This document shows, one piece after another, positions 19,010-25,798 of a DNA stretch of 64,000 nt. Where the stretch lies: NCBI RefSeq assembly GCF_002272875.1, contig NZ_MLAN01000004.1, positions 62,001-126,000 of the forward strand. Reading direction: 5' to 3'. The position numbers and the translations under genes are program-made. Numbering within the stretch: position 1 is the stretch's first letter; the number at the start of each line of letters is the position of its first letter. The notes under the pieces are model-generated. The model saw only the letters and a program-made list of their open reading frames with translations, had not been told where the DNA came from and did not search any database. The stretch comes from Helicobacter sp. 11S02629-2 (GTDB lineage Bacteria; Campylobacterota; Campylobacteria; Campylobacterales; Helicobacteraceae).

Positions 19010-19038
19010 AAAAGCTAAAGGCGTGCTTTTTAGCTTTT
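19010..19038. terminator. Bidirectional terminator hairpin
   Basis: AAAAGCTAAA (19010-19019) pairs with TTTAGCTTTT (19029-19038) around a 9-base loop. It is flanked by A-rich sequence on the left and T-rich sequence on the right, so it can serve both the small acidic protein gene (+) and the glycosyltransferase gene (-), whose stop codon it touches. Confidence 0.7.
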
Positions 19039-20023
19039 ATCCTTTTAATCTAATGGAGACAAGGAATCTAAAGATAGCTTTTATAAGCCTTTTTCTTTCA
19101 TAGTCTGATAGTAGATTCTTATCTACATTACCAGCTAGTACATCACAGATAAACTCTTTTGCTACTTTTATCAAAAAGCCAGCTTTAAGCCTTCCACTTA
19201 ACTTTTTATAGTTCCATATATAAGTAGCATACTTCATCTTACAGATAACTTTTTTTAGATGGTGATAGAGACCCTTTTCTTTGGCAAAGCGTCTTATCTC
19301 AGCACACTCTTTTATAACACAGTAGGCCTTTTCTTTAGTATTTACAGAGTTTATAGAAGAAGCTTCATTATCTATCCTATAGTGAAGTAGCACATCTTCT
19401 ATCATGCCAAAACGTTCACTCATGGCATAAAGTTTAAAGGCAAAAGATGTGTCTTGATAGCTTGCTCCTGGTGTAGGTAGAAAAAAGATCCCATTATCTT
19501 TTATCAAGCTTTTTTTGACAAGATTAGTCCAGATAGCAGGCGGCTGGTAGAAAGTTTCTACCTCATCTAGTGGTCTATAAACTGTATTTTTAGTGATATA
19601 AGAAGTATCACATAAGATGTTTTCATCATCTTTAGAAGTGTATAAAAAGTATTGACATCTTGCTATATCTAAGTCGTTAACCTTAGCTGTAGTGTAGAGT
19701 TTTTCAAACATATCTGGCTCTATAAAGTCATCAGATTCTACTATGCCTACGTAGTCACTACTTGCTAAATCTAACCCAGCATTCATAGAATCTCCATAGC
19801 CTGAGTTTGGCTTATTAATAATTTTTATGCGGGAGTCATAGCTTGCATACTCTTTTAGTATCTCTAGTGTGCTATCAGTTGAACCATCATTAATGCAGAT
19901 TATTTCTATATCTTTTAAGGTCTGGTTAACCACACTATCCATGCACTGTCTTAAAAACTTTTCTACGTTATAGCAAGGAATTAGCACTGATACATAAGGG
20001 CCTTTTCTTTTTGGACTTGGCAT
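19037..20023 (-). CDS. Family 2 glycosyltransferase
   Basis: A 328-residue GT-A enzyme. 'VSVLIPCYNVEKFLRQCMDS' at the N-terminus, 'CINDGSTDSTLEIL' and the metal-binding 'ESDDFIEPD' are the GT2 landmarks. There is no membrane segment, so it acts on the cytoplasmic face, transferring a sugar from a nucleotide donor to a surface glycan. The donor cannot be read. It is the last gene of the glycan operon, 103 bp after the cytidylyltransferase gene. Its first 120 residues are similar to the N-terminal domain of the fusion protein at 21760-24072, which suggests duplication within the locus. Confidence 0.88.
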   Translation of the reverse strand: MPSPKRKGPYVSVLIPCYNVEKFLRQCMDSVVNQTLKDIEIICINDGSTDSTLEILKEYASYDSRIKIINKPNSGYGDSMNAGLDLASSDYVGIVESDDFIEPDMFEKLYTTAKVNDLDIARCQYFLYTSKDDENILCDTSYITKNTVYRPLDEVETFYQPPAIWTNLVKKSLIKDNGIFFLPTPGASYQDTSFAFKLYAMSERFGMIEDVLLHYRIDNEASSINSVNTKEKAYCVIKECAEIRRFAKEKGLYHHLKKVICKMKYATYIWNYKKLSGRLKAGFLIKVAKEFICDVLAGNVDKNLLSDYERKRLIKAIFRFLVSIRLKG

Positions 20024-20126: not shown

Positions 20127-20546
20127 TCAGCTTTTTTGCCTTATCTTTCTTAAAGTCTCATTTAAGATAGTAGAGCTAGTGCCTTTTGTGTATGGGAAAT
20201 ACATCACTTTAACACCTACTTTGCTAAATTTTTCTTCCATATCTTTCCAGCTAGCAGAGTTATACCAATCATCTCCTACAAATAAAATATCAAAGTGCAA
20301 TTTCTCCCACATCTCGTATTTATCCAAGCTTTCTTGAGGTATAGCAGCATCGACATATTTTATATTACGCACTATCTCAAGCCTCTCTTCAAAAGGTATG
20401 ACAGAACGCTTATTTTTATACTCTACTAGCTTATCTACGCTAACTCCAACTATCAACTTATCACAAAGTCCCTTTGCATTTTTTAGCAAGTTTAAATGCC
20501 CTATGTGAAATAAGTCATAAACACCAGATGTATAACCTATTTGCAT
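20127..20546 (-). CDS. tagD: Glycerol-3-phosphate cytidylyltransferase (TagD-like)
   Basis: A 139-residue nucleotidyltransferase of the TagD size. 'GVYDLFHIGHLNLL' contains the H-I-G-H active-site motif, and 'FVGDDWYNS' plus the C-terminal 'GTSSTIL' match the CDP-glycerol branch. The product, CDP-glycerol, would feed the glycerophosphotransferase domain encoded two genes upstream in the same operon. This pairing supports the assignment over other cytidylyltransferases of the superfamily, for example ethanolamine-phosphate types. Cytoplasmic. Confidence 0.85.
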   Translation of the reverse strand: MQIGYTSGVYDLFHIGHLNLLKNAKGLCDKLIVGVSVDKLVEYKNKRSVIPFEERLEIVRNIKYVDAAIPQESLDKYEMWEKLHFDILFVGDDWYNSASWKDMEEKFSKVGVKVMYFPYTKGTSSTILNETLRKIRQKS

Positions 20547-20594: not shown

Positions 20595-21635
20595 TTACTT
20601 ATTGTCTATCTTTTCATACATATTTAAAAACTGTTCTAAACACCAACAAAGCCACTTTTGATCACCACTCATCCCCACTGTGCAGTCTTTTATAAACTCT
20701 GGCCTTGAAGTTTTATAGTCTTTTAGCCAAGCGTCCATAGCCCTTGGCATGGGAATCTTTGTAGGGATATTTATATCTGGATAAGCTTTTTTAAAAAGCT
20801 CTCTTAAAAGGTATTTTGGTTCTCCTGCCCTTATCCTTTGTAAGTCTAAATGTTCTACTTGCATATATGAATATGGATCTAAAAAAGAGATTCCAGCTAG
20901 TTTAAAAGCATTCGCATAAGAGCTTAGAGATTCCACCAACATATCATTGTTTATAAGCTTTATAAAATCTATTTTATTATTAGGCAGTTTATATTTTTCA
21001 TACTCACTAGTTACATCCACATAGTCTTTTAGAGCCTTGCTTGGTTCTATATAGTTATATCTTGTTACAAACTCTTCAAAGTTCCAGTCTTTTGATAAAA
21101 GCTTATCCATACCCCCAAAGATATAATCTGCACTATCACCTATAATGATTTTTTCTATACCTTGAGTTTTAGCATGCAAAGCAGCTTTTAAAAGTTGCAC
21201 CTCTATTGAGTGGAATGGCACTTGATTAGATTCTAAAAGCTTAGGAGTTAGTTTTTCAAAATCACTCCAGTGCATTTCTATTATCTCGTGACTTAAAGCA
21301 TATCTATGTGTGTATTTTTTAGCTTGGCTTGTTTCGTCTATAGCATTTTCACCTATACACTTAAAGGTGTAAGCTTTAGTATCCTTTGGTAGGTAGGAGG
21401 CTAAGATCGCACTATCTATACCACCTGATAAAAATAAAGCAGTTTTTTTAGGCTCATAAAATTGCATTATCTTTTCTTTCAGAATCTTGTCCACATCAAC
21501 TGCCAATCTTACTTTATAAGGCTTATCTAAAATCGTATATTTACTATGCTTTAGCCCAGAATAAAAGTTAATATTTACATTGCTTATGAATCTAAATGCA
21601 AGATAATTACTCATGCAGTATGTTTTATCTACCAT
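20595..21635 (-). CDS. AsnB-like amide-forming synthetase domain lacking the glutaminase domain
   Basis: A 346-residue ATP-pyrophosphatase-type protein related to the C-terminal half of asparagine synthetase B. The PP-loop 'FLSGGIDSAILAS' is at residues 88-100. 'GDSADYIFGGMDKLLS' and 'FLDPYSYMQVEHLDL' follow the AsnB pattern. The N-terminal Cys glutaminase domain is missing, so ammonia must come from a partner or be used free. In glycan loci such proteins amidate sugar acids; that is inference here. AAGGAG lies 5 bases before ATG. Its start codon lies inside a 43-codon ORF, implying coupled translation. Confidence 0.78.
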   Translation of the reverse strand: MVDKTYCMSNYLAFRFISNVNINFYSGLKHSKYTILDKPYKVRLAVDVDKILKEKIMQFYEPKKTALFLSGGIDSAILASYLPKDTKAYTFKCIGENAIDETSQAKKYTHRYALSHEIIEMHWSDFEKLTPKLLESNQVPFHSIEVQLLKAALHAKTQGIEKIIIGDSADYIFGGMDKLLSKDWNFEEFVTRYNYIEPSKALKDYVDVTSEYEKYKLPNNKIDFIKLINNDMLVESLSSYANAFKLAGISFLDPYSYMQVEHLDLQRIRAGEPKYLLRELFKKAYPDINIPTKIPMPRAMDAWLKDYKTSRPEFIKDCTVGMSGDQKWLCWCLEQFLNMYEKIDNK

Positions 21636-21759: not shown

Positions 21760-24072
21760 CTATCTCCCCAGAGCCTTAGTTATATACTCTGCTATGAGTT
21801 CTCCTGACGCACCATAATAATTTTTAAAATACATATCAAAGAACTTTTCTCTATTATTTTTCATAACATCATCTTGACTTATAACTACTGTTTTAATAAA
21901 GTCTTTTATGGAGCTAAAATCTTTTGCTATATAGCACTCTTCAAGTACCAACTTGCCAAAGTTATTAAAACGAGTTTTTAAAGTAGCCTTATCTTCCCAC
22001 CTATTTATAAAGCAAAGTGGCTTTTTTGTGTACATATACTCAGCTAAGAAAGAACCACTATCTAAGATAAGAGCATCACTGCTTGCAAAAAGTCCAAAGT
22101 AGTTAGCACCAGTGTATACTTGCCCATTGGGCAAACTATTAAAGCTAGCCATATAGTTGTCGTATTCTTTTTCGCTTAAGATATTTAACTCTAAAACTCT
22201 ACTTTTTAAAAGTGGATGTGGTCTTAAAACTACTTCTATATCTTTATTAGCTTTTACATATTCATAAAAATCTTTGTAATACAAATGGAAAGTAGCAAAG
22301 TTTATAGCCCATGTTGTATTTATAGAGTGATGAGGTGCCCAGATAAGCTTTTTGGCAGTCTCGTTTTTCCATTTAAAAGGTGGTGGATTTAGCAAAGCAT
22401 CCATCTTTGGATAACCAGTAACTAAGACATTTATACCATTATTATCAGCATATCTTTGAGATAGAAGTTTTGCTTCATTTGTTTCGGCACAATTTAGCCA
22501 AACTAAATTATGAAACTCTTCATTAAACGTATACTCTTCTATAGCACACAGCATAAACCCATAAGGTATACTCAAGCAAAGGGCTTTGTTGTAAAAATGC
22601 TTCACATCAAAGCTGTCTAATATGTCATTCATCCAATGGGTTTGATAGATTATTAAATCAGGTAGATTAGATTCTAAATCATAGGCAGTTTGCGTTTTAA
22701 AGTCATAGCCTTTTATAGTATTAAAACCAAGAGAGACAAAAAAGTTGTAGTTATCCTCTAACACTTTTTCTCTCAAGCACTCCATTATCTCCAAAGCAGG
22801 TGATATCAAGATGCTTAGTTCAAAGCCTTTTAGTTTTAAAGCCTTGCAAAGAGAGTGCATAGAAAAGTGCTCTTTATGATAGATGATGATAGTTAGTTTT
22901 AAAGGGCGTTTTAGCAACTTCTTAGATTCTAAAAGGTTGTTAGTCATAGAAGGCACAAGTGCTGTGTAGTAAACCTTTTTATCTAAAAAAGCTAGTTTAG
23001 ATTCTAAGCTAGCTATCTTTTCTTCTAGACTTATTTGCTTAATGTCTATTTTAGAATCTACAAAGGCTTCTAGTCTTGGCTTAAGCCTTTTTATAAGTAC
23101 ACTTTTTATCTTTGCTTTTAGTTTTGCTTTTAACCCTAAAGTGTTGCCTGATAAGACTTTTTCATATTTTTCATTTTTGAGTGCTTTTATAAATCTAGAG
23201 CTAACACTATCACTTGGATAAAACATCTTTGCATAGCTACTAGCTAGCTTTAAGACTTTTAATCTATCTTTATCTAAGGAGTGATTAAAAGAAAACTTGA
23301 AGTAGCTTTCAAATACCTCTAAAAATAGCCCTTCATAATCCTTATAAATATCATGCTTTATAAAAAACTCATAAAGATTCTTAACTACATACAAGTGATC
23401 TATAGCGTGCTCACTTCCGCTAAAAGTTTGATGCATGATGGAGTTCTTACGTCTCCTATAGTGGTAAGGATACTTGTCTATAAAGTAAGCACTTTTACAG
23501 CAAAGGATGTACTTAAAGAAAAACTCTGCATCTTCGTAGTATATACCTTCTGGGAAGTCTATATCAAACTTATCTATGATGTCTTTTTTAAAAAGCTTAT
23601 TGCAGGGAGATACATCTATATTAAATATAAGCTTATCTTGAAGTATAACCTTTCCTTTGTGCTTTACTCTGTAATATTCACTATCAGAATTTATATCGCC
23701 AATGGCCATATCTCCAAATACTTGTATACCATAAATGACTATATCTACATCATCTATATACTTTAAAGCCTCTTCATAAAAGTCTAAGTCTATATAATCA
23801 TCATCATCTATAAAGGCTATATAGTCCCCACTTGCTATTTTCAAGCCTTCGTTTCTAGCACTACCTGACCCCTTGTTTTCTTGGCTTAGTATTTTCATAC
23901 GGCTATCTTTGGCTGCATAGTCTTTTAATATATCTAGTGAGGAATCTATAGAGCCATCATTTATACAGATAATCTCTAAGTTTTTATAGCTTTGGTTTAC
24001 TACACTTTCTAAACACTCTTTTAGATACTTTTGAGAGTTATAAACTGGGATTATCACTGAAAGAAGGGTCAT
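21760..24072 (-). CDS. Fusion protein: GT2 glycosyltransferase + CDP-glycerol glycerophosphotransferase
   Basis: A 770-residue two-domain enzyme. Residues 1-about 290 form a GT2 domain ('LLSVIIPVYNSQKYLKECLE', 'CINDGSIDSS', 'FIDDDDYIDLDF'). A Lys-rich linker with a short coiled coil (about 310-370) follows. Residues 385-770 resemble TagB/TagF-type glycerophosphotransferases: 'WAPHHSINTT', 'VVLRPHPLL', 'DALILDSGSFLAEYMY' and the C-terminal 'GASGELIAEYI'. With the TagD-like gene in the same operon, the likely product is a glycan carrying glycerol-phosphate. Cytoplasmic side of the inner membrane. Such fusions are known in capsule and LPS loci, but the polymer here is not identifiable. Confidence 0.85.
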   Translation of the reverse strand: MTLLSVIIPVYNSQKYLKECLESVVNQSYKNLEIICINDGSIDSSLDILKDYAAKDSRMKILSQENKGSGSARNEGLKIASGDYIAFIDDDDYIDLDFYEEALKYIDDVDIVIYGIQVFGDMAIGDINSDSEYYRVKHKGKVILQDKLIFNIDVSPCNKLFKKDIIDKFDIDFPEGIYYEDAEFFFKYILCCKSAYFIDKYPYHYRRRKNSIMHQTFSGSEHAIDHLYVVKNLYEFFIKHDIYKDYEGLFLEVFESYFKFSFNHSLDKDRLKVLKLASSYAKMFYPSDSVSSRFIKALKNEKYEKVLSGNTLGLKAKLKAKIKSVLIKRLKPRLEAFVDSKIDIKQISLEEKIASLESKLAFLDKKVYYTALVPSMTNNLLESKKLLKRPLKLTIIIYHKEHFSMHSLCKALKLKGFELSILISPALEIMECLREKVLEDNYNFFVSLGFNTIKGYDFKTQTAYDLESNLPDLIIYQTHWMNDILDSFDVKHFYNKALCLSIPYGFMLCAIEEYTFNEEFHNLVWLNCAETNEAKLLSQRYADNNGINVLVTGYPKMDALLNPPPFKWKNETAKKLIWAPHHSINTTWAINFATFHLYYKDFYEYVKANKDIEVVLRPHPLLKSRVLELNILSEKEYDNYMASFNSLPNGQVYTGANYFGLFASSDALILDSGSFLAEYMYTKKPLCFINRWEDKATLKTRFNNFGKLVLEECYIAKDFSSIKDFIKTVVISQDDVMKNNREKFFDMYFKNYYGASGELIAEYITKALGR

Positions 24073-24133: not shown

Positions 24134-25258
24134 TCAACTCTCCTTTTTCACTTCTTCAAACACATCAAAAGCACGCTCTATAGCTTTGTCCATGTCGTAG
24201 TATTTGTAATCACCTAGGCGACCTAGAAAGTAGGTGTTGCTTAACTTCTTAGCTTCATCTAGATATGTGTTATAAAGGGTAGTGTTTTCCTTGCAAGCCA
24301 CTGGATAGAATCTCTGGCTACTCCCAAGCTTAAAGTCTTTTGGATACTCCTTAGCTATGATAGTTTTTGAAGTTTTAGTATTTAGATAGTGCTTGTATTC
24401 ATGTATCCTAGTAAAGCTATAGTTGTTAGGATAGTTTATGACTGAGTTTGTTTGATAAAACTCTGTATCGTGAGTTTCAAGCTTAAAGTCTAAACTTCTA
24501 TAAGGAAGCACTCCAAACTTATAGTCAAAAAACTCATCTATAGAACCAGTAAAAAAAAGTCTTTTGTACCTAAAATCTTTGCTATAGCCTGTGTTTAGTC
24601 TAACTTCTATGCTTTTATGATCTAGTATGTTTTTAATAGTTTGTGCATAGCCAAGCATGGGTATACCTTGAAACTTATCTTGAAAATACCTTTCATCAAG
24701 GCTGATATGAACTGGCACTCTAGCAGTTATGCTTTTATCTATGCTTTCTGGAATACTCCCCCACTGCTTAGTTGTGTAGTTCAAAAAGATTTTTTCATAG
24801 ATAAATCTAAACAAGAAGTTTAAGTCTTCATCTTTGCTTTTTTGAAACTCCAAGATAGGTACTTTTGTGTTATAGCTAAACTCTTTTAAAAGCTTTATCT
24901 CTAGTCTTTTAGCTAGGGTTATGGGTAGGAGTTTATGGAGTGTTTTTAGATTAAAAGGCACACTTACTTCTTGCCCATCAATTAGGGCTAAAACTTTATG
25001 CATGTATATATTAAAAGTGGTGAATCTAGATATAAAATCCCATACTTTTTCACTCTCAGTGTGAAAGATATGAGAGCCATACTTATGTATCAAGATTCCA
25101 TCTTGCAAATAGTCAAAGCTATGTCCTGCAATATGGTCTTTGCAGTCTATAACTAGTACTTTTTCATCTAAGTTTTCTGCTATAAGCCTAGCTATAACTG
25201 CACCTGAAAAACCAGCTCCCACTACTAGATTTATATCATCACTAAAGATTTGCTCCAT
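24134..25258 (-). CDS. glf: UDP-galactopyranose mutase
   Basis: A 374-residue flavoenzyme that converts UDP-galactopyranose to UDP-galactofuranose. The FAD-binding 'LVVGAGFSGAVIARLIAE' is at the N-terminus, 'HIAGHSFDY' and 'HKYGSHIFHT' are family motifs, and the late 'FLGRLGDYKYYDMDKAI' closes the active site. It is the first gene of the glycan operon, so the polymer probably contains galactofuranose. A 26-bp repeat lies only 27 bp upstream of its ATG and a second, inverted copy lies 183 bp further on, so its promoter may be under orientation control. Confidence 0.95.
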   Translation of the reverse strand: MEQIFSDDINLVVGAGFSGAVIARLIAENLDEKVLVIDCKDHIAGHSFDYLQDGILIHKYGSHIFHTESEKVWDFISRFTTFNIYMHKVLALIDGQEVSVPFNLKTLHKLLPITLAKRLEIKLLKEFSYNTKVPILEFQKSKDEDLNFLFRFIYEKIFLNYTTKQWGSIPESIDKSITARVPVHISLDERYFQDKFQGIPMLGYAQTIKNILDHKSIEVRLNTGYSKDFRYKRLFFTGSIDEFFDYKFGVLPYRSLDFKLETHDTEFYQTNSVINYPNNYSFTRIHEYKHYLNTKTSKTIIAKEYPKDFKLGSSQRFYPVACKENTTLYNTYLDEAKKLSNTYFLGRLGDYKYYDMDKAIERAFDVFEEVKKES

Positions 25259-25285: not shown

Positions 25286-25311
25286 CACCACATAATGTAT
25301 ATTGTGTGGTG
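25286..25311 (+). repeat. Left 26-bp inverted repeat upstream of the glycan operon
   Basis: Sequence reads CACCACATAA, TGTATA, TTGTGTGGTG. The outer 10-base blocks are near inverted copies around a 6-base centre, which is the layout of a tyrosine-recombinase core site. Its exact reverse complement occurs at 25495-25520. Confidence 0.85.
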
Positions 25312-25494
25312 GTATATATCTTAAAAAGTAACAATTTTATGGAGTAGACAAGTTATTGTAGGAATATACTATGATGATATAGAGTAAAGTTTGTTTTTAG
25401 AAGTTTCTTTTTGGAATATTTTTTAGATATAAGGAGTAAGATGTAAATAAAAACATCTGTGTTATAATCTTTGTTAGTTTTTAATCACACAAAA
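25312..25494. promoter_or_regulatory. 183-bp segment between perfect inverted repeats, candidate invertible promoter
   Basis: The segment sits between the glycan operon (leftward) and rimP (stop at 25799). It contains a perfect TATAAT at 25463-25468 on the plus strand, pointing away from glf in the present orientation. If the segment inverted, that box would point at glf and start transcription about 70 bases before the glf ATG. Minus-strand boxes in the present orientation are weaker (for example TATATT and TATAAC forms). No coding frame is seen. No recombinase gene is in the window. Confidence 0.5.
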
Positions 25495-25520
25495 CACCAC
25501 ACAATATACATTATGTGGTG
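25495..25520 (-). repeat. Right 26-bp inverted repeat upstream of the glycan operon
   Basis: Exact reverse complement of 25286-25311, reading CACCACACAA, TATACA, TTATGTGGTG on the plus strand. No flanking direct repeat is evident, so transposon ends are less likely than recombination sites or operators. Confidence 0.85.
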
Positions 25521-25772
25521 TTAATATGTTACATTTTTATACATAGATTATTTCATAAAGTTTATCTTTAGTTTGTTTGTGTTTAGTAAAAGTTGTCTTA
25601 TATAAGCCTTTTTAAATTTATAAATATAAGATACTCATCATCTTTCACATAAGACGTAGCACTTTTTACTGTAACACCAAGTAGGAATATTAGACTATTA
25701 AGTATCACTAGACACAGCTATAGTGTGAAAGAAGTTTTATTTAATTAGTAAAACTTTAGGCAAAGCCAAGCT
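25521..25772. other. Intergenic region without recognised gene
   Basis: AT-rich, with many TATAA-like words. No frame with a ribosome site and no recognisable RNA is seen. It lies between the right inverted repeat and the rimP terminator palindrome. Confidence 0.5.
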
Positions 25773-25794
25773 AAATATACTTATAAGTATATTT
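25773..25794 (-). terminator. Perfect palindrome after rimP
   Basis: AAATATACTTA and TAAGTATATTT are exact reverse complements. The palindrome lies 4 bases beyond the rimP stop on the minus strand and could end the infB operon transcript, although it is purely AT-rich except for two C:G pairs. Confidence 0.45.
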
Positions 25795-25798
25795 ATCT

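Follow-up and report, generated by a model that had tools for sequence, protein, structure and literature searches.

Phase variation in Helicobacter and Campylobacter has been described mainly via slipped-strand repeats. In Bacteroides fragilis, a single serine recombinase, Mpi, switches the promoters of several capsule operons that direct surface glycans. In the fim-type systems of E. coli (fimS with FimB/FimE, and also ipuS and hyxS), a promoter segment of ~200-300 bp lies between short inverted repeats (PMC6083910). In the part of a 2025 study that deals with clostridial invertons, group 139 was tied to tyrosine-type invertase group 35, and in a published example, that of Clostridium sp. 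D5, the repeats are 26 bp long with a spacing similar to that found here (PMC11892184). A read-based genome-wide survey of inversions recorded none in six epsilonproteobacterial samples (PMC5903667).

Inverted repeats and a predicted promoter upstream of the glf operon

The window, a 64-kb stretch of DNA corresponding to positions 62001-126000 of contig C49 in a 1.88-Mb Helicobacter genome of 61 contigs (G000; here the own genome), includes an operon of five co-directional genes beginning with glf (Table 1). The next gene upstream of this operon is rimP, of the rimP-rbfA-infB group. A near-perfect 15-bp palindrome (25769-25798) immediately follows the stop codon of rimP, and transcription of the upstream operon may end there, ahead of the putative switch.

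The first-pass annotation had reported a pair of 26-bp repeats before glf that are exact reverse complements of each other with 183 bp in between, and this was confirmed when recomputed on the window. An arm-spacer-arm layout had also been described for each repeat; the 10-bp arms were upheld, but the centre consists of four bases (GTAT) and not of six. The site reads ACCACATAAT-GTAT-ATTGTGTGGT, with one mismatch between the 10-bp arms and an asymmetric centre. When up to three mismatches were allowed, the 24-mer core of the repeat was found at no place in the 64-kb window besides these two, and 100 dinucleotide shuffles gave 0 matches.

The TATAAT noted earlier was found to be part of an extended -10 element, TGTTATAAT, which is indeed directed away from glf as assembled and would be directed towards glf if the segment were inverted. 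When the segment is inverted in silico, the -10 element comes to lie on the strand required for glf, and its end is 79 nt ahead of the ATG. A generic sigma-70 scan of the locus identified 5 promoters where 4.5 were expected, which is at chance level, and the extended -10 element is absent from its output because the scan requires a -35 element. As the proximal site ends so close to the glf start codon, there is little room for a promoter outside the segment.

Table 1. Positions of the sites, genes and promoter element described here (C-numbers precede contig coordinates; all others are window coordinates)
Feature	Location	Strand	Details
Operon-proximal recombination site	25286..25311	+	26-bp inverted repeat; ends 27 bp before glf start codon
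Parts of proximal site	25287-25296, 25301-25310 (arms); 25297-25300 (core)		core GTAT
Putative invertible segment	25312..25494	.	183 bp, 23% GC, assembled OFF; inferred from five Helicobacter and at least ~100 clostridial loci
Extended -10 promoter element, TGTTATAAT	25460..25468	+	27 bp from distal site; points away from glf
Operon-distal recombination site	25495..25520	-	exact reverse complement of proximal site, same core
glf, UDP-galactopyranose mutase (PF03275)	24134..25258	-	first gene of operon
Glycosyltransferase family 2 and CDP-glycerol glycerophosphotransferase domain protein	21760..24072	-	
Asparagine-synthase-like protein (PF00733)	20595..21635	-	
Cytidylyltransferase-like protein (PF01467)	20127..20546	-	
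Glycosyltransferase family 2	19037..20023	-	last gene of operon
Window pair	C49:87287/87496		core GTAT
Second pair, own genome	C49:153002/153221		core AGGT
Third pair, own genome	C24:291995/292216		core TACT
Pair, sister genome	C3:8486/8708		core AGAT
Pair, sister genome	C40:52460/52671		core GAGC/GCTC
Small tyrosine recombinase (PF00589, E 2e-26)	C49:152420-152962		180 aa from ATG; 204-aa open frame
Shared 127-bp nucleotidyltransferase start	C24:292292-292418 (L026 end); C49:153260-153386 (L025 end)		

Further site pairs and a small tyrosine recombinase in two Helicobacter genomes

The first-pass annotation had proposed looking for the repeat elsewhere in the genome and for a recombinase gene close to any copy. 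Further copies exist: six sites forming three inverted pairs were found in the own genome, and two pairs in the genome of Helicobacter sp. 13S00401-1 (contig C40 is NZ_MLAR01000003.1), a sister of the same genus that was isolated from a Central Asian tortoise (PMC5566214). The site consensus for both genomes is ACCACAYAAT-N4-ATTRTGTGGT. The site was not found in the other 196 of 198 relatives, nor in the other 395 of 397 sampled members of the class.

All five Helicobacter pairs are inverted and flank short intergenic inserts of 185-198 bp. If both sites of a pair are read in one direction, their cores are identical, and no two of the five pairs have the same core. Every insert contains the sequence TG[TC]TA[TC]AAT, the end of which is 25-27 bp away from the operon-distal site. 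All five of these predicted -10 elements, which were identified from sequence, are directed away from the operon, i.e. OFF in the assemblies. In each of 3000 shuffles, at most two of the five inserts had the motif at about this position. Beyond the promoter area, the inserts share little, with pairwise scores at or just above shuffle level, and hence comparing them in both orientations cannot reveal an inversion between the two species.

We regard it as extremely improbable that the pairs are the terminal inverted repeats of a small MITE-like mobile element or of its remnant, even though the inverted ends, the small size and the presence of several copies in the genome would agree with such an origin. 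Against this, the inserts are unlike each other beyond the promoter area, and the cores differ by locus but match within pairs. Moreover, the bases just outside the window pair, TATC on the left and TTAA on the right, do not match, i.e. there is no target duplication, and the recombinase described below is encoded beside a pair rather than inside it.

The best-defined genes downstream of the Helicobacter pairs are glycan genes. In the sister genome, the genes that follow the GCTC pair encode a cytidylyltransferase, a nucleotidyltransferase, a SIS/CBS sugar-phosphate protein and a LicD protein, and those that follow the AGAT pair encode a glycerophosphotransferase, an aldolase-family protein and a sugar epimerase. 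No match to glf was found in the sister genome at 1e-6, in a search run without a positive control. Of the pairs in the own genome, those with the cores AGGT and TACT are each followed by the beginning of a nucleotidyltransferase gene. Its first 127 bp are identical at the two loci, after which both contigs end, and the remainder of this gene was found nowhere in the assembly. An assembly repeat thus probably conceals the operons downstream of two of the three putative switches in this genome. The published sister genomes were sequenced at ~212x on average with 300-bp Illumina reads and assembled using SPAdes (PMC5566214), and a shared end of 127 bp would be consistent with overlapping k-mers where the assembly branches.

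In the own genome, five matches to tyrosine recombinases were found, and a single serine recombinase. The latter was rejected as the agent, as its gene (C24:63826) is not near a site. One of the tyrosine recombinases is small, and its gene is located outside the window at ~65 kb from the window site, with its stop codon 39 bp before the AGGT pair. The stop codon of its counterpart in the sister genome, with 76% identity, is 62 bp before the GCTC pair, so that in each genome a tyrosine recombinase gene adjoins one of the pairs. No recombinase is encoded next to the window pair or the pair in C24, and the enzyme would therefore act on these in trans.

The small recombinase was found in 2 of 121 Helicobacteraceae genomes, the same two that carry the sites, and the others gave matches only to long XerH-like proteins with ~25-33% identity. 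The proximity of gene and site and their co-occurrence suggest that the small recombinase uses the ACCACAYAAT-type site. All six catalytic residues (R40, K66, H128, R131, H154 and Y163) are present and conserved in both small recombinases. The best solved relatives of the confident AlphaFold model (pLDDT 88) are the catalytic domains of XerA and XerH, together with other tyrosine recombinases.

The same site in gut Clostridia

When 84,980 genomes were scanned for exact matches to the site, at least 117 stretches were identified. Nearly all of the matches listed are from Lachnospiraceae, Oscillospiraceae and related gut Clostridia, and most of the clostridial loci are in metagenome-assembled genomes (MAGs). 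The exact site was not found in viral contigs. In at least ~100 loci in gut Clostridia, the site flanks inserts of 157-592 bp. Among the matches listed, 111 of the 115 pairs that are 100-700 bp apart have reverse-complementary cores and none have identical (direct) cores, whereas shuffling of partners would be expected to give reverse-complementary cores in 2.6 of 115 on average. At least 50 distinct clostridial cores were found, and none of those in the matches listed is palindromic; if a core were palindromic, it would lack the asymmetry through which a pair undergoes inversion instead of deletion.

Most of the clostridial pairs among the matches listed are adjoined by a gene for a tyrosine recombinase of ~280 aa. 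In 77 of 78 loci, this gene has its 3' end towards the site, usually ~10 bp off. On the other side, at least 40 clostridial loci have an ORF of 200 aa or more that begins no further than 150 bp away, and many of these ORFs have signal-peptide-like starts. The small recombinase shares 21-27% identity with the clostridial recombinases in an alignment made here and is without their N-terminal domain, and in a recombinase tree the two Helicobacter enzymes form a long branch separate from the clostridial ones, so that the tree does not indicate a direction of transfer between the two groups.

The flanks of two of the loci, L059 and L131, are identical at 1414 of 1422 positions on the left and 1556 of 1562 on the right (99.4-99.6%), and are thus the same locus. 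However, the 245-bp insert matches at only 72 of 245 positions when compared directly but at 244 of 245 when inverted, and the change falls exactly between the two sites. As the inserts are in opposite orientation, the ACCACAYAAT-type sites recombine. L059 and L131 are filed as Fournierella and Gastranaerophilales, respectively, and at least one of the MAG bins is mislabelled or contaminated, though the difference in orientation stands. Likeness of inserts between distant clostridial loci was rejected as a source of further cases, as the alignments were weak and of mixed orientation, and only that of L059 and L131 was strong enough.

Palindromic 24-bp sites beside a promoter would, in isolation, also fit paired operators of an ordinary transcription regulator, with the segment between them never inverting. 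However, an operator has no need for a 4-nt centre that varies by locus yet is reverse-complementary within a pair, and this explanation accounts neither for the recombinase gene ending next to the site in Clostridia nor for an inverted insert between the otherwise identical L059 and L131. It is very unlikely to apply.

Strong promoters were found in 63 of 78 clostridial inserts among the matches listed, as compared with 16% of shuffles. Using a stricter threshold, 38 promoters in the matches listed are directed at the recombinase (OFF) and 10 at the gene on the other side (ON), and in both states the -10 element is typically ~34 bp from the site that it faces.

The OFF orientation shared by all five Helicobacter inserts might indicate former switches that are now locked by inactivity of either the recombinase or the sites in Helicobacter, and at 180-204 aa the recombinase is indeed short relative to the ~280 aa of the clostridial enzymes. 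However, the clostridial loci are likewise mostly OFF, and FimB-type invertases also have a length of ~200 aa (198-200 positions in the NCBIfam models). Although the small recombinase has diverged to 76% identity between the two species, its length of 180 aa and its catalytic residues have been kept, and the identity of the core within pairs has been retained at all five Helicobacter loci. It is thus unlikely that the Helicobacter switches are locked.

Two tandem sites with the same core, ~30-55 bp apart, were seen at one or both ends of some inserts, as in L056 (6606-6981), and doubled sites are also present in L059, L060, L075, L098, L114 and L119. In L075, L079, L114, L139 and L152, the switch precedes a gene with a product that begins with a helicase-like Walker A sequence (HPTGTGKSFIAFKL). 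At clostridial targets of this type, phase variation may govern a function other than at the surface, such as defence.

Proposed mechanism and relationship to known systems

The locus upstream of glf is very probably a phase-variable promoter switch, one of several in which a tyrosine recombinase of catalytic-domain size acts in trans to invert the promoters of glycan operons. The earlier proposal of promoter inversion governing surface glycan expression is supported by the site pairs, the recombinase and the clostridial locus present in both orientations. Inversion by this type of site is seen in Clostridia; for Helicobacter, we infer from the anatomy of the loci, co-occurrence and the matching of cores that inversion occurs, which enzyme performs it and how expression is affected.

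In the proposed mechanism, the small recombinase would bind the arms ACCACAYAAT and ATTRTGTGGT, and strand exchange across the 4-nt core would invert the 183-bp segment. The assembled orientation, with the promoter facing away from glf, would be OFF, and after inversion (ON) the five-gene glycan operon would be transcribed. The same enzyme would serve at least two further switches of the own genome in trans. Each core would be private to its locus, and as it would have to match between partner sites, recombination would be confined to partners and inversion would be forced.

The OFF state of all five Helicobacter loci as assembled is in line with the OFF bias in Clostridia. At the recombinase-adjacent loci, in both Helicobacter species and in most of the clostridial loci listed, the OFF promoter is aimed directly at the recombinase gene, towards its 3' end. 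A tentative and rather doubtful extension is that OFF stabilises itself, with antisense transcription or collision lowering the amount of recombinase, and that the recombinase-linked switch sets the flipping rate of the others in trans. If true, this would amount to a two-level network of phase variation in Helicobacter.

No report of recombinase-driven promoter inversion in Helicobacter or its phylum was found in the open-access literature, taken without the large PhaseFinder survey tables. The 10-mers of the site occur in published text in primers and unrelated genes, and none of the matches listed concerns DNA inversion. The mechanism is known from gut Clostridia and E. coli; what appears to be new, as no report was found, is its occurrence in tortoise-associated Helicobacter, where one compact, divergent enzyme appears to control several surface glycan operons. 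The putative recognition sequence is common to Helicobacter and gut Clostridia though the enzymes are only ~25% identical. Such a simple consensus makes these switches findable in any genome, and the locus-private cores offer a direct test of what keeps recombination to the right partners.

Like Mpi, the small recombinase would serve the promoters of several surface glycan operons, but Mpi is a serine recombinase whereas the candidate in Helicobacter is a tyrosine recombinase with another family of sites. XerH, which acts at difH in Helicobacter and Campylobacter, shares the tyrosine recombinase catalytic fold. However, XerH is a chromosome-dimer enzyme of 350-400 aa present in most of the Helicobacteraceae searched; the small recombinase is separate from it, and both genomes hold both. 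The fim-type invertases are likewise of catalytic-domain size and have the conserved active-site residues of tyrosine recombinases (PMC6083910; NCBIfam invertase models), though the site sequence is unrelated and here several loci, each with a private core, appear to share one enzyme. The NCBIfam FimB/FimE invertase models gave the small recombinase 32-44 bits (E ~1e-8 to 1e-11) against cut-offs of 221-222, and it is not a member of these families.

Another of the closest known systems is clostridial group 139, which, in the part of the study describing it, consists of short intergenic invertible promoters with a tyrosine-type recombinase nearly always adjacent (PMC11892184), and from that description the ACCACAYAAT sites are probably the site family of group 139. 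In contrast to the clostridial enzymes, the predicted Helicobacter enzyme is of ~180 aa, is divergent and would work far from its gene. The best-defined targets in Helicobacter are glycan operons, whereas many of the clostridial targets have signal-peptide-like starts.
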